Notes under the pieces: generated by a model
Told to the model about the DNA's origin: nothing
The model's database searches: none
Seen by the model: the letters and a program-made list of their open reading frames with translations, nothing else
Shown here: positions 47,335-56,675 of the stretch, piece by piece
Position numbering within the stretch: the first letter of the stretch is position 1
Layout: every line of letters starts with the position of its first letter
Made by a program: the position numbers and the translations under genes
NCBI GenBank assembly: GCA_000270325.1
Contig: BA000048.1
Span: 826,800-890,799, forward strand
Direction: 5' to 3'
DNA: 64,000 nt
From: Candidatus Caldarchaeum subterraneum
GTDB taxonomy: Archaea; Thermoproteota; Nitrososphaeria_A; Caldarchaeales; Caldarchaeaceae

Positions 47335-49029
47335 ATGGCGGTAATCCTCGAAACAACCAACCTCGAAACCAAACGCAAGCTCGTAACCAAGACAAGAAGC
47401 ATCTGCCCCGAATGCAACAGAATACTCGAAGCAGACGTCGTCGAAGAAGAAGGCAAGATAAAGATCTACAAGACATGTCCCAAGCACGGCGAGTTCGACG
47501 ACCTCTACTTCGGCGACGCCGAGATGTACTACCGATTCGCAAGATGGCTCCACGACGGAAAAGGAACAGGAAACCCCAACGTCGAGATGCCACGCTGCGC
47601 ATGCCCAGCCAACTGCGGACTCTGCAGCAGCCACCTAAGCCACACAGGCCTCTCCAACCTCGTCATCACCAACAGATGCGACCTCCACTGCTGGTACTGC
47701 TTCTTCTACGCAGAAAAAGCAGGATACATCTACGAGCCGACACTTGACCAGATACGTGAAATGGTCAAGCAGCTCAAAGCCGAGCGCCCCGTTCCAGGCA
47801 ACTCAGTCCAGATAACGGGCGGAGAACCATGCCTAAGAGACGACCTGCCAGAAATAATCCGAATCCTCAAGGAAGAAGGCGTTGACCACATCCAGCTCAA
47901 CACAAACGGCATACGTCTCGCCCACGACTTCGAGTTCTTCAAACGAGTCAAGGAAGCAGGCGTAAGCAACCTATACATGAGCTTCGACGGCGTCACACCC
48001 AGGACAAACCCGAAAAACCACTGGGAAGTGCCCAAGACACTGGAAAACGCACGCAAACTCGGAGTCGGTGTTGTCCTCGTCCCAACAGTCATCAAATCAG
48101 TCAACGACCACGAGCTCGGCGACATAATCCGCTTCGGCTTCCAAAACATCGACGTCGTAAGAGCCGTCAACTTCCAGCCCGTAAGCCTCACGGGCAGAAT
48201 GCCCAAAAAAGAGCGTGAAAAATACAGAATCACAATCCCAGACTGCATACACCGGATAGAGGAGCAGACAAACGGCGAAATCCCCAGCGACGCATGGTTC
48301 CCCGTACCAGCCTGCACACCCCTCACAAACTTCATCGAAGCACTAACAAGAAGAGCACAATACGAGCTCAGCATACACTTCGCATGCGGCGCAGGAACCT
48401 ACGTCTTCAAAGACCACGACAAACTCATCCCCATAACAAACTTCGTAGACGTCGAAGGCCTCATCAAATACCTCCAAGACAAAACAGAAGAAATAGAAGC
48501 AGGCAAAAACAGATTCTACATAGCACTCAAAGTCCTCGCCAACATCAACAAATACATCAACACAAACAAACAACCAACAGGACTAAACCTCAAACACATG
48601 CTATACAACATAATAATCAAACACGACTACCACAGCGTAGGCGACTGGCACCGCAGATCACTCTTCCTAGGAATGATGCACTTCCAAGATAAGTATAACC
48701 ATGACGAGGAACGGCTCAGAAGATGCGACATACACTACCTGACACCCGACATGAGAATCATTCCATTCTGCGCCTTCAACGTTATCCCCGAATGGTACAG
48801 AGACAGAATCCAGGCACAATACGGCATCCCGATAGCCGAATGGGAGAAGAGGACAGGCCGAAAGCTCAAGGACGACTTCTACAAACGCCAGCTCCCCTCC
48901 AAACAACAGACAGTGCCCATGGCCTCGACGAAAACAGCAGGCTTCGGCGGACTGAAAGAGATTCCGGTCATCCAAGGCGGCTCAGGAAAAGAAGAAAACT
49001 GCGGCCCCAGCTGCGGCTGCAGCCACTAA
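47335..49029 (+). CDS. tes: Tetraether lipid synthase-like radical SAM protein (Tes)
   Basis: A 564-residue radical SAM protein strongly resembling MJ0619/Tes, which joins archaeol chains to form GDGT membrane-spanning lipids. N-terminal cysteines ICPECNRIL and TCPKHG form the family's extra metal-binding module, CACPANCGLC supplies another cluster, and the radical SAM motif is CDLHCWYC at residues 115-122. QITGGEPCLRDD and QLNTNGIRLA are SAM-binding segments. A Cys-rich C-terminus (CGPSCGCSH) is present. An MJ0619-like role is well supported by these motifs; related family members can act on other substrates. Confidence 0.87.
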   Translation: MAVILETTNLETKRKLVTKTRSICPECNRILEADVVEEEGKIKIYKTCPKHGEFDDLYFGDAEMYYRFARWLHDGKGTGNPNVEMPRCACPANCGLCSSHLSHTGLSNLVITNRCDLHCWYCFFYAEKAGYIYEPTLDQIREMVKQLKAERPVPGNSVQITGGEPCLRDDLPEIIRILKEEGVDHIQLNTNGIRLAHDFEFFKRVKEAGVSNLYMSFDGVTPRTNPKNHWEVPKTLENARKLGVGVVLVPTVIKSVNDHELGDIIRFGFQNIDVVRAVNFQPVSLTGRMPKKEREKYRITIPDCIHRIEEQTNGEIPSDAWFPVPACTPLTNFIEALTRRAQYELSIHFACGAGTYVFKDHDKLIPITNFVDVEGLIKYLQDKTEEIEAGKNRFYIALKVLANINKYINTNKQPTGLNLKHMLYNIIIKHDYHSVGDWHRRSLFLGMMHFQDKYNHDEERLRRCDIHYLTPDMRIIPFCAFNVIPEWYRDRIQAQYGIPIAEWEKRTGRKLKDDFYKRQLPSKQQTVPMASTKTAGFGGLKEIPVIQGGSGKEENCGPSCGCSH

Positions 49030-49175: not shown

Positions 49176-50499
49176 CTATAGAATTTCTGGCCAGAGCTCT
49201 TGAATTAAATTGTAAACTGATGATACCCCTTTGCATTTTACGTCGAATCCGAACAAATCAAGTAATGAGGCCATATCCTTAGCTATCTCTTCTGGAACGT
49301 ATAATGTATCGAATTTCTTTAATTCAGTTGTTAATGTGTCGGACAGTATGTTGGGTACAGGATAAAATCCACGTAGTTGCACCGCTTCATCGTCCTCCTC
49401 TTCATCAATTTCTAATATTTCTTTTAAGTGTGCCGCTTCTTTAAAGGCTGAAGCAGATCTTACCGCGCCTTGAAGGTCGACCTCACCGTAAAAGCAACAA
49501 CCCTCGTTGATGCCTTTCTGGACATATGAAGACAGCAATGCTATCACTACAGCTAGATCAAATCCGTGGTCATATTGTTTGTGAGGAGATGAGCGCATAA
49601 GACAATCTATGTTGTAGGTGAGATTAGATACGTCGATGTTAGGAATGTTACGGATTGTGTCGATTAATTGTTCTATCCTTTGCCGGGGAAGATAAGGTGC
49701 CCGAACTCCACCGTGTTCACCCCATTTAGGTATTTCTACTCTAGCCTGTATTTCGGCAAATGCTCCTGTTGCGAAGCTGATGCCATTGGCTTTACCTACT
49801 ATGCCTTCTGCGTGTCGTGATGGGTATAGACCATTATTACCTATCTCTAGCACAAAAGGATCTAGCTTCGCTGGTCCAAAGCGGTTTTTTGGGACAAACA
49901 GAGGACGGAGTTTAAAGGCTCGTCGGAATTGAAGGACACAGTCAACATGATGTTCTAAGTCTTTTGGGCCAGCTATATCCCCTTTTTTAGTGACGTGAGA
50001 CGTCAGAAAAGTGGTTATTTTCCGGTTCTTTAAAGCTGTTGTGAATTTGTTTACTCTTGTATACATTTTTCTCGCGGCAGGCGACACCCCTCCTGCCTGA
50101 ACCGAATCTATAACCACCAATTTAATGCCAGAATACTCAGCAACACGTTTCTCACCTAGTATTATCCTAGACCATATTTCAAGTTCTCTTAAGTCGGGCA
50201 GAGGTTCTATGAGGAGATTTTCGCTCAGTGGCTCACTTATTCCCTCATTATACAATCTTTGAATAATAGACTTTAGATCTGATGGTGATTGTTCCGAAGT
50301 TAGATACAAAACTTTTCTTCCCTGTTCTGCGATATCACAGGCTAATTGTAATGCTAGCGTTGTTTTGCCTATTCCAGGTTCCCCCGCTAGCAGATATATG
50401 CCGCCCTCAACTATCTCAACGATTTTTTTGAAACCACCTGAGTTGATGAAGGTCTATCTGCCTAAGGTTAGACTCTCCAATATCACTGAGTCTAGGCAT
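49176..50499 (-). CDS. radA: RadA/Sms-like ATPase with Lon-type C-terminus; 5' frame disrupted
   Basis: A homologue of bacterial RadA/Sms, a branch-migration motor. Walker A is GEPGIGKTT, Walker B is IKLVVIDSVQ, the KNRFG motif occurs in VPKNRFGPA, and a Lon-like C-terminal domain shows DHGFDLAVVIALLSSY and FYGEVDLQGAVRSA. The zinc finger of bacterial RadA is missing. The Walker A frame is open only back to a TAG at about 50459 and has no start codon there. ATG 50499 (MPRLSDIGESNLRQI), with a TATA box about 27 nt upstream, is in a different frame, so a one-base indel or frameshift near 50455 is implied. Confidence 0.75.
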
Positions 50500-50658: not shown

Positions 50659-50943
50659 CTACTCAGAAAATTCTCTGCGTAGGAAGTGGTTCTTGACAGC
50701 TAGGTAGAACTTGTGACCGCTGAAGAGCGCCGTGAACCTGAGTATGCTGTCATTCAGCACTCTCTTTCTAAGGACTCGCTCTATATTATTCCCATATGAA
50801 AAGCCCTCGTTATGCAAGGTGTCCACAATCTTTCCCAGCTTGAAATAATTCTTCAACAAATCTTGTCCAGACCTTTTCAGACTTTGCATAAATGATCTTT
50901 GAGATGAGCTGCTAATACGGAACCGCAACCAATCCATTCTCAT
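50659..50943 (-). CDS. Hypothetical 94-residue protein
   Basis: A basic protein (MRMDWLRFRISSSSQ ... NHFLRREFSE) lying 20 nt downstream of the LAGLIDADG gene on the same strand. It is probably mostly alpha-helical and I recognise no family. It could be a remnant of a larger gene, since this segment has low coding character. Confidence 0.35.
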   Translation of the reverse strand: MRMDWLRFRISSSSQRSFMQSLKRSGQDLLKNYFKLGKIVDTLHNEGFSYGNNIERVLRKRVLNDSILRFTALFSGHKFYLAVKNHFLRREFSE

Positions 50944-50963: not shown

Positions 50964-52229
50964 CTACTTACCAGAGGTCTGTTTATCATTTAGAGTGTAG
51001 GTTAGCTGGGTAGGGGCGGTTTGGGCCTTTAGAGGTCTTCTATCCACCATGTTTGCCGTGTTCATTTCATGTTGGACTTTTTCGAAGAAAATCTTTGCAC
51101 GACATCGGCCAGTCTCGACGGATTTTTCGTAAAGTTCGTCTAGGTAATCCTTTATTTTTTGCGCTTCCACCCATCTAATTGGTCTACCGTTCGCCTGCTC
51201 AAGAAGTCTCAAAGCCCATATTCTGTAGACCTCTTTCATCGGATGAGGTAATGGACCAAGCCATCGTAAGACCTTCTGAACTTCCTCTCTTCGTCCTACT
51301 AGAAGTCGATAGGCTCTCTTTGTTGTTACATAGCGCCTACCGTATCTGTCCCTTGCTACATTACCCATGTCGCTGTAGAGAGTTTTTGATGGGACGTATC
51401 CGTACCTACGAAGAACGTCTTCGACCTCGCTAACGAGTATTTCGTTGGTGTTTGTAAGGATCACGACATCGAATTCTGTGGTTGGTTTATCGGTCTTCTC
51501 CTTGTTTCGTGCACTCCAGGTGATGTATCCTTCGCACGCCAGCATCATGGCTAGGTATGCCCGTAGTTCTTCGTCTGTTTTGATGAAGTCCGGTATCCTC
51601 ATAGAGTTTTTGGCCTCTACGAGGAATTGCCAGTCTTTGAGGTCGAATCTCATTATTAGCTGCCATTCGTAGTAGTCCTCGGTGTATTTTCGTGCTCCTA
51701 GGGATATTGTTCCATGGCCTTCGAAGAGTTTGGCAACTGTTTTTGCGAAGCCTTCGTATGGTGTGTTCAGTATCATTTCGACCATTGTCCTGCCCTTCAC
51801 CCGTACTGCAGCGTCTCCTTGCGCCAATGCAGCAGCCATAGCCATCTGTATCGTGTCCCTCGCCGGCTTCCTAGGTCCTCTGAGCGTTGCCCTGCGCACG
51901 GCCTCGGCCTGGTTTCGAAGCTTTACCCCTGCCTCTACCAGCCTGTTCCTCAGCGTCTCCTCGTCTATCTGATGCTCCGGCCCAAGCAGCCTGTTTATTG
52001 CTTCAGATACTTCTCTGTAGTTGTAGCAAGCCTCGTAGAGTATGACGGCTGCCCCCAGGTATGGCGGCGGATAGATGGCTCGTTTTCTACCAGTCTTCTT
52101 CGGCGGCGGTAGCCTTGCTCTTAGCTCGGCGTCTCTTTCCTCGACTTGTTGAAGGTCTTTCTCCAGCATCTCCATTAGCTTCGCAAACGCGTCTTTCCCA
52201 CCGTCTTCGCCACCCACCAAACCTTTCTC
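50964..52229 (-). CDS. LAGLIDADG-domain protein (putative homing endonuclease)
   Basis: About 421 residues from ATG 52229. The N-terminal third is charged and helical with a possible helix-turn-helix (PPPYLGAAVILYEACYNYREVSEAINR). A single LAGLIDADG-like helix follows in LAMMLACEGYITWSARN near residue 228, then the typical beta-rich DNA-binding half including VEDVLRRYGY and YRLLVGRREEVQKVLRWLG. With one motif it probably acts as a dimer, if active. It is free-standing; I see no flanking intein or intron-split host gene. A highly structured GC-rich segment lies just upstream. Confidence 0.72.
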   Translation of the reverse strand, partial: EKGLVGGEDGGKDAFAKLMEMLEKDLQQVEERDAELRARLPPPKKTGRKRAIYPPPYLGAAVILYEACYNYREVSEAINRLLGPEHQIDEETLRNRLVEAGVKLRNQAEAVRRATLRGPRKPARDTIQMAMAAALAQGDAAVRVKGRTMVEMILNTPYEGFAKTVAKLFEGHGTISLGARKYTEDYYEWQLIMRFDLKDWQFLVEAKNSMRIPDFIKTDEELRAYLAMMLACEGYITWSARNKEKTDKPTTEFDVVILTNTNEILVSEVEDVLRRYGYVPSKTLYSDMGNVARDRYGRRYVTTKRAYRLLVGRREEVQKVLRWLGPLPHPMKEVYRIWALRLLEQANGRPIRWVEAQKIKDYLDELYEKSVETGRCRAKIFFEKVQHEMNTANMVDRRPLKAQTAPTQLTYTLNDKQTSGK

Positions 52230-52261
52230 CATTTTTCTCCCATCACCTCCGGGGACCTCGT

Positions 52262-52504
52262 GGCCCCCCATTGAACTGAGGGGGGCTCCGCTTTGCGGCG
52301 GAATGTCTCCGGAGAGTGGGGCGGAGAGGTTTGGCGGGGCCCGGACAGCCTATACATGTCCGTGGCCATGCACAGGCTCCCCGGGGTCATCTGTGTGGCC
52401 CAGGCGGATGCTACAGGCAGCCACGGCTGCACGGGGCCACCTTGCCCAGCCAGCTCCCCACCGTACACCCGCCCATCGCTGCGGCGGGTCCCTGTTGAAA
52501 GGGA
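52262..52504. other. GC-rich, hairpin-rich segment (candidate structured RNA)
   Basis: A conspicuously GC-rich stretch with weak coding character on both strands. Stem-forming pairs are 52263-52269/52280-52286, CCGC-TTT-GCGG at 52288-52298, 52364-52375/52391-52400 (10 bp with a 2-nt bulge, with CCCCGGGG in its loop), 52417-52421/52426-52430, ACCCGCC/GGCGGGT at 52467-52473/52483-52489, and 52489-52493/52500-52504. In a thermophile of moderate GC this profile suggests a folded RNA. I do not find SRP or RNase P consensus. The first 40 codons of a minus ORF starting at 52654 may be coding. Confidence 0.45.
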
Positions 52505-52640
52505 AAGATGGTGGGTGGTTTTCAAGCTGGCTGGACTGGTTCTCCTCAAGCATTGTACGGAGGCCTTTTCCTCGTTTGCCCCCGCCCCTATCCACTCTTC
52601 ATAGTCTTCAAGCCTTTCCTCACATCTCTCATCCACCTCT

Positions 52641-53564
52641 CTATTGATCTTCAAGACAGCTCAGTCCCTGAAGTCTCTCCCTGAGTGCAATGGCAGCTTC
52701 GACAGCAGCCATCTTAATTTTCTTACCCCTTTCAGTCAAGAATAGTCGGCCATCTCTCTCCTCTATTAGACGCAGCCCTATTAGACGCTTCATCGCCCTT
52801 CTCGTCAGCTTAATTTTCTTGCCTTTATCCCCTATACCATACAATGTTTTCACATCACTCCACCTGATGAATTCGAGATGATCCTTTAGGCGCGGGTTGT
52901 TCCGTAGAATTTTTATGAGCTGCTTAGCTAATCGCAGGTCGTACACTCCCGAGTTTATTAGGTTCTTGACCGTGAGTTCTTGAGGAATTCTTTTCTCTTT
53001 GACTGGCTTAGCAGCCTGCTGAGCCCGAGTTAAATCTTCTCTCGAAGCTCTGCGACCCGTCTGTTCCTTCTGTTTAGCCGGTGACTGGTTGAGATGTTTA
53101 GAGGTGCCTTCAACCGAGTTTGTGGAGGGCAACATAACATAACCCGGCGCGGTACTCTGAATACGAGGTTGGATTACTACATTCTCTGCCAAAGTCCCTG
53201 CAGCGATGGCGTGTCTATGAACTTGTTGAGCCATCGAAACATCCAGAGGAAGTTCCTCTTTTTCGTCTCCTTCAATATATTGTTGCGGCTGCTCGTCTGC
53301 CATCTTCTGCAGCAAAACAACCAACCCTCCGAGCGGTGACAGGATAAGCGTGATAAACGTAGCCGCCTGCAGCGGTGACTGCAGAGCTCTTATAGCAGGA
53401 TCAGCAGGAGAGCTTAACGCGAAGAATGCTAGGGGCGAGGCTGCAGCCAGCAGAAAGGCTAATCCTCTGCATCGTCTATGTCTTCCGGCGAAATGTGCCA
53501 TAAACGTGTATGCTGCCAAAGTCACGTAACCAGCCATGAACACTGAGGCAACGAGGCTAATCAT
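52641..53564 (-). CDS. Membrane protein with C-terminal winged-helix domain (hypothetical)
   Basis: About 307 residues from ATG 53564. Three hydrophobic segments lie in the first 100 residues (one is SPLQAATFITLILSPLGG), followed by a long disordered Gln/Pro/Thr-rich linker (about 110-190). The soluble C-terminus resembles a winged helix-turn-helix (KLTRRAMKRLIGLRLIEERD, then FLTERGKKIKMAAVEAAIAL). The architecture suggests a membrane-tethered DNA-binding protein (inference). A GTG/ATG at 53657 would add 31 residues with poor context. It lies upstream of the structured segment and LAGLIDADG gene on the same strand. Confidence 0.55.
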   Translation of the reverse strand: MISLVASVFMAGYVTLAAYTFMAHFAGRHRRCRGLAFLLAAASPLAFFALSSPADPAIRALQSPLQAATFITLILSPLGGLVVLLQKMADEQPQQYIEGDEKEELPLDVSMAQQVHRHAIAAGTLAENVVIQPRIQSTAPGYVMLPSTNSVEGTSKHLNQSPAKQKEQTGRRASREDLTRAQQAAKPVKEKRIPQELTVKNLINSGVYDLRLAKQLIKILRNNPRLKDHLEFIRWSDVKTLYGIGDKGKKIKLTRRAMKRLIGLRLIEERDGRLFLTERGKKIKMAAVEAAIALRERLQGLSCLEDQ

Positions 53565-53753
53565 GCCCCGACGCAAGGAATAAAAAGAGGGAGAGCAAAA
53601 AACTATACGTCGGAAAAATCGTCCCAAAAAGCAGAGGAAAGCCAAAGTTGAGTCCAAAAAAATCCCAGACCCAAAATAGATAGGTGTAAAAAGAGAGGCA
53701 GACCCTCGAAGTTTGACGAGTTTCTATGGACGCTGCACCGTTCTGGAAATTTG

Positions 53754-54401
53754 ATGGTCATAAAGAAGATTTATGGGTCCTCGGATGAGAGTCCAGCTAA
53801 AAGCACGATTTATAACTATCTCAAGATGTTAGAAAAGGGACTTCCGGCGAAACGGTTCAGAATTCTCTGTAAAATTCCGCTCATAAAAAACATCCGGCTT
53901 AGGCCACTCTTCTTGAAAAAAGCCGGAGATAGCATTCTAGTATATGCGCCCGACAATTTTCTTGGAAAGGAATCTGCCGGAATCCTGCTGTGGATAGCAA
54001 TAATAATGTTATACGCCTTCACAGGCTATCTATCCTCCGATCCCCAGCTGATTACATATGCCCTGTTGTTCTACTTCGTGCTATCTGCAGGTGTCGCTAT
54101 TAGAATTCTGGCGAGTTATCTCTATTTACGCTCCAACGGAATTTACCGAAAGTGGGAGATAAAAGTAGCTGTGGATGGTAAAACCTCCGTAGAGGGGAGT
54201 TTCAACGGAAACATAACCCTAAAAGAAATAATGGAATGGGCGTTGGCGAAGATTTACTCATCCAGCGTATACAGGAAACCCGAGAACTATTTAATTTATT
54301 TTGGTAATAAACAGCTGAGCCCACAATTGCGGCTTTATCAGACAAACTTGCCGACACATTTAACATTTACCTTAACGAGAATTAAACGAACACAAAGTTG
54401 A
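53754..54401 (+). CDS. Hypothetical membrane protein
   Basis: A protein of about 215 residues with a basic N-terminal domain (KSTIYNYLKMLEKGLPAKRF), two central transmembrane helices (about 78-96 and 100-122), and a soluble C-terminal domain ending TFTLTRIKRTQS. No known family is recognised. It is divergent from the membrane/winged-helix gene and sits in the accessory region; its codon use is AT-richer than the chromosome's. Confidence 0.5.
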   Translation: MVIKKIYGSSDESPAKSTIYNYLKMLEKGLPAKRFRILCKIPLIKNIRLRPLFLKKAGDSILVYAPDNFLGKESAGILLWIAIIMLYAFTGYLSSDPQLITYALLFYFVLSAGVAIRILASYLYLRSNGIYRKWEIKVAVDGKTSVEGSFNGNITLKEIMEWALAKIYSSSVYRKPENYLIYFGNKQLSPQLRLYQTNLPTHLTFTLTRIKRTQS

Positions 54402-54534: not shown

Positions 54535-55011
54535 ACGACCACGTAATAGCCCACCGAAAACCATCCCCATTACAGAGGTCTACGAATCCTTTGTTTAATT
54601 TTACGAAGCCCGATGTATGTAGTAATGTCGAGAGCAAAACAACTTTAGCTAACACTCCTCCTGCCAACAGCAGTCATTAACAAAAATATGATGCCGGTAA
54701 CTAGTGTTGGAATAACTAATTTACATTTGAACATATGGTCAAAATAATCAAGTCATAAATACCCGAACCTATCGCAAAGAAGTTCAGGAAAAAGGCGATG
54801 GAGCAATATGGGTCATGTACACATTCTCAGCAATAATCATGTACTTTGCCAGAGTAGGTGATCCTATATATCAACCTGGGTCCTTATGATAGGGAAAGCA
54901 CTAACGATACAATCGCTACACTATGGACATGGACGCCTTTGAATCCCAATGGCGTTAACCACGTTGATACCGCCGCTCGTTTTAAGAAAATTTTTAAATA
55001 TTCATGTTATC
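54535..55011. other. Gene-poor AT-rich stretch with remnants
   Basis: No complete gene is supported. Short open pieces in two frames around 54775-54890 (AKKFRKKAMEQYG, then VMYTFSAIIMYFARVGD in another frame) look like parts of one decayed gene. Confidence 0.35.
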
Positions 55012-55236
55012 ATGTATGTGTGTTTGAAGACTATTACGATTCGTGATGATATATATCTGGAGCTTGTTAAGCGTAAGCGGGATGGCGAGAGTTTTAGTGA
55101 CGTGATTGGGAGGCTTTTGAAGCGATCTAGAGTGAATATAGGCGAGTTTTTCGGATGTATGAAGGATAGTCCTCTACTAGAGGAGCTCGAGTCGTCAACT
55201 AGGCGTTTGAGAGAGATGGCTAGGTTTAGGACATGA
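55012..55236 (+). CDS. vapB: VapB-type antitoxin, DUF217-like
   Basis: A protein of about 74 residues beginning MYVCLKTITIRDDIYLELVK, with the family segment RKRDGESFSDVIGRLLKR typical of archaeal DUF217 antitoxins. It overlaps the next PIN gene by 4 nt (ATGA). An upstream ATG at 54949 is in a hydrophobic, unlikely extension. An AT-rich box (AATTTTTAAATA, about 54988-55000) lies close upstream. It may still be expressed although its toxin gene is frameshifted. Confidence 0.72.
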   Translation: MYVCLKTITIRDDIYLELVKRKRDGESFSDVIGRLLKRSRVNIGEFFGCMKDSPLLEELESSTRRLREMARFRT

Positions 55237-55578
55237 TACTGTTAGATACGTCATTTCTGATAGATTACTTTAGAGGAGTAGAGGCCACGAGAGATATTGT
55301 GGAGGGCCAGGAAGTGACTACGACAGTAATTACATACCATGAGATATCAACCGGGTTGAAGAATGCTAGAGCGAAGCGTGAAGAGTTATTCTTTAGGAGA
55401 TTCTTTGCATCCACTCCAATACTTACGGGCGGCGGAGGAGTCAAGTGAGATAGCCGCACGATTGTTGGCAAGTGGCAAAGAGGTAAACGCGTTAGACATA
55501 CTAATAGCTGGAATAGCGGTAGCCAACGGAATAGAAAAGATAGCGACACGAGATAAAGACTTCCTAGAAAAAAAGTAA
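55233..55578 (+). pseudogene. vapC: VapC PIN-domain toxin, frameshifted
   Basis: A PIN ribonuclease split over two frames. The first frame gives MILLDTSFLIDYFRGVEAT and runs to FFRRFFASTPIL before ending at a TGA at 55446-55448. The second, entered near 55425, gives YLRAAEESSEIAARLLASGK and ends with ALDILIAGIAVANG and IATRDKDFLEKK. Together they make a full-length VapC with its acidic residues. One extra base around 55415-55435, by mutation or sequencing error, explains the split. Confidence 0.78.
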
Positions 55579-56159: not shown

Positions 56160-56312
56160 GCATACTCCACCCCCACGTCTCAAGCTATTATCTTTACCTT
56201 TAGTGATGCTGTAGTAGGGTCTGTTAAGCTGTTTTTATTTTTTCTTTATGGCGAGCGGGCACTGATGCGATGTGTGGCTAGGCTTAATTCTAAAGTCCGT
56301 TCAGGGCATGGT

Positions 56313-56675
56313 ATGAGCGGTTTTGTCTGTGGTTTGGATATCCATAAGTGGTTTTGTGAAGCTACTGTTGTTGACTGGTTCGGTAATGTAGTGGAGTCTA
56401 GGAGGATGTCTAGGGATGAGCTCTATTCCTTCCTATCTAGCATGTATGTCTCTCTAGTTGCTGTGGAGTCTTCTAGCTATGGCTATCCTATGTATGGGAG
56501 GCTTAGGGGTATGGGTTTGGAGGTGATAGCTGCCCATCCTAGGAAGGCTAGGTTGATTGCTGAGAATAGGCTTAAGGGCGATAGGAAGGATTCTAGGTGT
56601 CTGGCAGAGCTGGCTAGGCTTGGGGCCTTGCCTAGCTCATACATACCTGAGGGAGAGATAGCTAGGATGAGGTAG
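56313..56675 (+). pseudogene. IS110-family transposase, truncated
   Basis: The N-terminal DEDD catalytic domain of an IS110-family transposase. GFVCGLDIHKWFCEATVVD gives the first Asp, SLVAVESSSYGYPMY the Glu, GDRKDSRCLAELARLG the Asp pair, and the sequence ends YIPEGEIARMR. The C-terminal half (transposase 20 domain) is missing after a TAG at about 56673. It is therefore an inactive insertion remnant. Confidence 0.78.

Follow-up and report, generated by a model that had tools for sequence, protein, structure and literature searches.

We analysed a stretch of 64,000 nucleotides from Candidatus Caldarchaeum subterraneum (the window), corresponding to bases 826800-890799 of its single-contig genome of 1,680,938 bases. 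The segment at 52255-52510, which a sequence-only reading had singled out as a cluster of GC-rich hairpins, lies between two genes of the minus strand, a membrane/winged-helix gene (53657-52641) and a LAGLIDADG homing-endonuclease-like gene (52232-50964). Comparison with three relatives (genomes G018, G005 and G049) delimits a longer conserved unit, whose 3' end falls inside the LAGLIDADG coding region, within its first codons. The features of the locus are listed below by window position, with stems named P2 to P7.

53751 to 54401, plus strand: divergent gene for a small membrane protein, a neighbour in G018 too (blastp cluster c9: G000, G018)
52641 to 53657, minus strand: upstream gene with N-terminal membrane-like segments and a C-terminal winged-helix-like part (by eye), co-occurring with the RNA
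52207 to 52588, minus strand: whole conserved RNA, predicted to be structured, 382 nt here and 398, 404 and 390 nt in the three relatives (blastn, four-genome alignment and RNAalifold)
52577 to 52588, minus strand: invariant 5' block GGGGCGGGGGCA, identical in all four genomes, with alternative partners in the folds (the domain 2 loop or the start of P5)
52444 to 52536, minus strand: domain 1, with the long stem P2 (12 bp), P2c and hairpins P2d and P2e (P2 to P2e hand-aligned, 11 columns with both-sided changes; same fold in separate minimum free energy (MFE) predictions, except P2d in G049)
52332 to 52447, minus strand: domain 2, with stem P3a, its highly conserved internal loop and hairpin P4 (pair counts and covariance model R1)
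52207 to 52341, minus strand: domain 3, the long helix P5 with hairpins P6 and P7, whose 3' strand comprises the Shine-Dalgarno (SD) sequence, the start codon and the first LAGLIDADG codons (pair listing in four genomes; P6 with both-sided changes)
52244 to 52250, minus strand: SD-like GGAGGTG (sequence, and base-pair probabilities in four genomes)
50964 to 52232, minus strand: protein with a helix-turn-helix (HTH) and two LAGLIDADG motifs, 422 aa if translated from 52232, the likely start
50659 to 50943, minus strand: 94-aa ORF following the LAGLIDADG gene, with a 262-aa relative in G003 and a 101-aa one in G018 (blastp cluster c4 and ORF lists)

The segment at 52255-52510 has a GC content of 67.6%, against 51.4% for the whole window, and no other 256-base stretch of the window folds more strongly. 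Its MFE is -131.8 kcal/mol on the minus strand and -127.6 on the plus strand, while nearly all of the 256-nt tiles taken from both strands (n=996; mean -71.6, SD 14.6) fold more weakly, the sole tiles in its range being the overlapping ones at 52225 (-129.5 and -123.6). The GC-rich, strongly folding segment of the sequence-only reading was thus borne out, as part of a conserved unit longer than it had noted. Over the whole element, MFE z-scores from 100 dinucleotide shuffles in the four genomes were, for the minus (sense) strand, -5.2, -5.7, -3.2 and -4.9, and for the opposite strand -3.9, -3.1, -1.9 and -5.9.

We further investigated whether the base pairs are under selection. RNAalifold, given a MAFFT alignment of the four genomes, reached -260.4 kcal/mol on the sense strand against -186.7 (SD 7.3) for column shuffles that preserve gaps and conservation (z -10.1), and -233.9 against -183.2 (SD 7.7) on the antisense strand (z -6.6), with 0 of 100 shuffles attaining the observed value in either case. 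MFE predictions made separately for each genome gave the same three domains, except for P2d in G049 and the interior of P3 in G005. In domain 2, standard pairs fill 136 of 143 cells (95.1%); the 7 unpaired cells lie in G005 (3) and G049 (4), and there is one additional gap cell. Both-sided changes affect 11 of its 36 pairs, compared with 5.6 in shuffles (0 of 500 as high) and 0-1 in slid controls. In domain 1, P6 and P7, which were aligned by hand, 162 of 163 cells are paired and 13 of 41 columns show both-sided changes; one of the cells, P2e column 1 of G005, uses a base that also belongs to P2d and ought not to be counted, and the counts lean towards the structure because domain 1 and P6 were aligned to conserved anchors. 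Stem P2, in the alignment of which G005 was partly placed past a 1x1 mismatch and G018 past a bulge, provides an example, as GUCCAGCCAGCU/AGCUGGCUGGGC becomes GUCCAUGCAGGC/GCCUGCAUGGGC in G049. Compensatory changes in homologues therefore exceed the controls, as expected for a structured RNA under selection, and we consider on this comparative evidence that a conserved structured RNA is almost certainly real. This supports the sequence-only reading, which had seen the footprint of a folded RNA and had proposed covariation among homologues as a check. Of the stems it had described, ACCCGCC/GGCGGGT corresponds to helix P2e, which is conserved and displays both-sided changes. Its 10-bp stem with a CCCCGGGG loop (GGCCACACAG with CUGUG..UGGCC, minus strand) can form in the window genome, but by eye the CACAG/CUGUG part is broken in the other three; the bases involved belong to the supported stem P4.

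The fold reaches into the start of the LAGLIDADG gene. Domain 3 is predicted to bury codons 2-8 along with the SD and the start codon. The final 51 nt of the element, which are ungapped in all four genomes and hold the SD, the start codon and codons 2-9, are predicted in each of them to pair with the 5' strand of domain 3, so that the SD and the start codon would sit in a conserved helix, as in leaders that occlude the ribosome-binding site. At 37 C the SD has, in the four genomes, a predicted pairing probability of 0.70-0.91, and at 70 C one of 0.64-0.86. The pair listing for P5 was drawn from individual MFEs; this helix is more irregular in G005, where SD pairing is 0.55 at 80 C, and G049 has changes in both the gene start and the 5' strand of domain 3 with which it pairs. 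Codon usage is also constrained in this region: at residues identical in three genomes, the same codon is used at 8 of 9 positions in codons 2-10 and at 101 of 224 elsewhere (Fisher p 0.011), with codons 2-8 the same in 7 of 7 cases.

The protein encoded downstream resembles homing endonucleases. An alternative start at ATG 52271, giving a 435-aa ORF, precedes the SD and was rejected for that reason; it was this 435-aa ORF that matched Pfam PF14528 (LAGLIDADG_3) with an E of 4.2e-5. An AlphaFold2 model (6 sequences; mean pLDDT 72.8, pTM 0.63) displays two LAGLIDADG repeats and matches I-Tsp061I (TMt 0.70), E-DreI (Z 16.7) and PI-PfuI (Z 15.8) in the PDB, as well as I-DmoI, the maturase bI3 (among the Foldseek matches) and WhiA (VIA Z 13.7). 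A Z of 8 or more was obtained for 188 of 1000 aligned chains, with LAGLIDADG enzymes in the top rows. An acid ends each motif: D140 is invariant in six sequences, and the second motif has E234 here and an acid in the relatives too. The two-repeat fold and both acidic positions are shared with the archaeal intron and intein homing endonucleases I-Tsp061I, I-DmoI and PI-PfuI, from which the window protein differs in being free-standing, with an N-terminal helix-turn-helix-like part and an adjoining structured RNA; no intron or intein was seen. WhiA, a LAGLIDADG-type transcription factor, likewise joins a LAGLIDADG fold to a helix-turn-helix. In contrast to WhiA, the window protein keeps both motif acids and its gene is patchily distributed, and an endonuclease therefore fits better than a core regulator.

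Similarity to the segment was detected by blastn in only 4 of 398 genomes of the phylum, the window genome included, with DNA identities over the segment of 90% (G018), 78% (G005) and 70% (G049). In all four carriers the LAGLIDADG gene lies directly 3' of the RNA. The covariance model R1, covering domain 2, matched the same four of the 398 genomes and 3 of the 44 genomes of the class; because R1 was built from these four sequences, its matches on them are by construction. The family sample is thus four sequences, mostly from one order, one of them on a probably misbinned contig. This last copy, in a genome nominally of another class, sits on a 6.3-kb contig (L029, G049 contig 26) together with an end of tes (tetraether synthase, NF045702) that is 70% identical to the tes of the window, whereas the genome's own tes, on another contig, is 52% identical to it, which is typical for its class. 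From these sequences, the module contig was probably misbinned, or else transferred.

The LAGLIDADG protein itself was found in 9 of 398 genomes of the phylum at E up to 0.001, of which five are close relatives. The fifth of these, G003, lacks the RNA, the N-terminal part of the LAGLIDADG gene and the winged-helix gene. Searches of viral contigs returned 0 further homologues by DNA pattern, by protein or by profile; those of plasmids and phages returned 0 and one 39-nt chance match by DNA, and 0 and 0 by protein. More distant HTH-LAGLIDADG relatives occur in G035, G138, G337 and G330; by eye, no GC-rich leader was seen upstream of the distant genes L014, L020 and L022, while L015 starts at a contig end. 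G138 encodes four such relatives (L015, L020, L022 and L023; 24-28% identity), which suggests, from sequence, a multicopy family of free-standing LAGLIDADG proteins in Thermoproteota. Among the five close genomes, the LAGLIDADG gene is broken in two: in G049, where the RNA is intact, by two changes of frame and an in-frame stop, and in G003 by a stop, a frame change and the lack of its N-terminus. Such breakage is as expected for a decaying gene of the homing type. With a patchy module and broken genes, the sequence-only suggestion of a mobile-element RNA may hold.

We give an even chance to the interpretation that the element is a cis-acting leader occluding translation initiation of the endonuclease, the first two domains of which would sense a ligand, perhaps the protein itself. 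An RNA of ~380 nt would be made from the minus strand, probably inside an operon mRNA running from the membrane/winged-helix gene to the LAGLIDADG gene. According to the computed pairing, the upstream strand of the 3' domain would clamp the SD region, the start codon and codons 2-8, so that little of the LAGLIDADG homing-endonuclease-like protein would be translated. The conserved loops of domains 1 and 2 are far more than a simple hairpin would have, and these two domains could serve as a receptor by which the 3' domain is released or locked. As LAGLIDADG folds are able to bind structured RNA, maturases being an example, the most probable ligand would be the LAGLIDADG protein itself, in a form of autogenous control.

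Several observations speak for such a leader: the sense-strand alifold signal, the covariation in domain 2 and in P2, P6 and P7, the constant position 5' of the gene, the predicted pairing of the SD and first codons in all four genomes, the codon conservation there, the fold match to the maturase bI3, and a precedent in phages, for which PMC3014915 describes structures occluding the ribosome-binding site on the I-TevI, mobE and segB messages. The likeness to these phage leaders lies in an SD and/or an endonuclease gene start held in an RNA helix, here by prediction; the window RNA differs in its size (~380 nt), its three domains with conserved loops, its archaeal host and its nuclease, a LAGLIDADG rather than a GIY-YIG or HNH protein. 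Against it, a sample of four sequences, mostly from one order, is thin, and a multi-domain RNA of 380 nt exceeds what translational occlusion needs. The intact RNA beside the broken gene of G049 is also not something a pure leader would require, although the decay may be recent. The irregularity of P5 in G005, and a P5 listing that comes from individual MFEs, weigh against the leader as well. If the leader is real, it would represent an unusually elaborate control of a homing-type endonuclease.

The main rival, although unlikely, is a LAGLIDADG-associated noncoding RNA that would be processed from the 5' region and would act in trans, joining the LAGLIDADG protein in a ribonucleoprotein much as HEARO/omega RNA joins IscB. 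The anatomy is similar: PMC9755519 places HEARO, also a structured RNA, in the 5' UTR of an endonuclease gene, immediately upstream of the coding region. RNA and gene occur together in all four carriers, and the RNA is intact where the gene is broken (G049). When each of the three relatives is compared with the window genome, DNA conservation is also higher in domain 2 than in the coding region (94.3 versus 87.5%, 89.2 versus 81.1% and 75.5 versus 71.6%, gapped columns left out). However, HEARO (RF02033) gave no match at the gathering score, none at E up to 10 in this segment and none at E up to 2 in the three relatives. A variable 5' segment like the HEARO guide was not found, the first 12 nt being identical in all four genomes, and the protein is LAGLIDADG by Pfam and fold, a nuclease fold unrelated to the RuvC/HNH of IscB. 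Moreover, the 3' strand of the RNA lies inside the coding region, which cis action fits at least as well. The fuller proposal, that the RNA is released as an obligate partner, forms a ribonucleoprotein with the HTH-LAGLIDADG protein and directs or licenses DNA cutting or spread of the module, would make it a counterpart of HEARO/IscB arisen independently in thermophilic archaea; we hold this to be unlikely. If true, it would constitute a new RNA-nuclease system. Large structured RNAs tied to nuclease genes have proved to be regulators, ribozymes or guide RNAs, and we know of no RNA associated with the LAGLIDADG nuclease class outside introns.

It is improbable that the structure acts as DNA, for instance as an origin or as a recombination or homing target site, a reading close to the replication site that the sequence-only reading had envisaged. 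The sequence is compatible with it: the antisense structure is conserved too (z -6.6), and the locus is patchy and mobile-looking. Yet the signal is stronger on the sense strand, the SD and start codon are predicted to pair and the codons there are conserved, and domain 2 contains 13 G-U against 2 A-C cells on the sense strand, a count that leans towards that strand because the structure was derived on it. The stronger fold and covariation on the sense strand, together with the pairing of the ribosome-binding site, favour RNA over a DNA replication site.

A self-acting ribozyme or an intron relic, with the LAGLIDADG protein as its maturase, appears very improbable. LAGLIDADG genes often lie inside introns, and the fold matches include I-Tsp061I and I-DmoI, which are archaeal intron endonucleases, as well as the maturase bI3. 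But no intron (group I or group II) or ribozyme family of Rfam matched within 52150-52700 at E up to 10. The element is flanked by two separate ORFs, no split gene was noticed, and the predicted fold takes in the start of the gene; the intron remnant proposed from sequence alone is not supported. At the gathering score, no Rfam family matched anywhere in the window. Within 52150-52700 the top-ranking match, at E 0.68, was to SAM-Chlorobi on the plus strand, with 17.9 bits where the gathering score is 35, and the single match in the loci of the three relatives at E up to 2 was HOTTIP_3 (E 0.9); both were taken as chance. SRP RNA and RNase P, considered on account of their motifs, were dropped for want of an Rfam match. 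The covariance-model check proposed by the sequence-only reading therefore pointed to no known family at the level of the window or of the segment. Literature searches returned no publication on this RNA, and the HEARO/IscB titles they gave were without a LAGLIDADG RNA. The RNA is thus previously uncatalogued, with no Rfam family and none in the literature searched, its novelty being only as good as these searches, and that literature contains little on the RNA biology of the archaeal order in which it is found.

A coding role for the element, be it as an N-terminal extension of the LAGLIDADG protein or otherwise, can practically be set aside: although frame 0 is open through it in 3 of 4 genomes, a stop interrupts it in the window genome, no frame is open in all four with the same content, indels between genomes are not multiples of three, and the distances of conserved blocks to the gene frame differ modulo 3 between genomes. 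The lack of convincing coding seen from sequence alone thus agrees with the comparison of the four genomes. The open frames of 585-630 aa in the relatives were dismissed as a product of a stop-poor, GC-rich leader with no conserved frame.

All five close copies of the LAGLIDADG gene lie near the 3' end of tes. The module is absent from the tes 3' flank in 13 other genomes of the order, where the content of the flank is variable. In the window, tes occupies 47335-49029, and the region downstream of this core gene varies across the order in the manner of an integration hotspot (13 genomes besides the five with the module). The upstream gene (52641-53657) had no Pfam match; among the 44 genomes of the class its relatives are in the RNA carriers G018 and G005, and a relative clusters in G049 as well. 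The 94-aa ORF appears to be a shortened relative of the 262-aa protein of G003 (L030 3199-3987), which has a C-terminal zinc-ribbon-like pattern by eye. An ORF at 49176-50309 resembles RadA/Sms-like ATPases, covering only profile positions 127-414 of TIGR00416 at a score well below the cut-off, and also matches a PHROG of unknown function. On the other side of the module, 54949-55578 holds a gene for a VapB antitoxin and, after it, a PIN-domain toxin gene that is divided between two frames. The N-terminal part of an IS110-family transposase, apparently a fragment, is found at 56265-56675 (PF01548, E 8.5e-9), and an ORF related to it lies near the module in G005.
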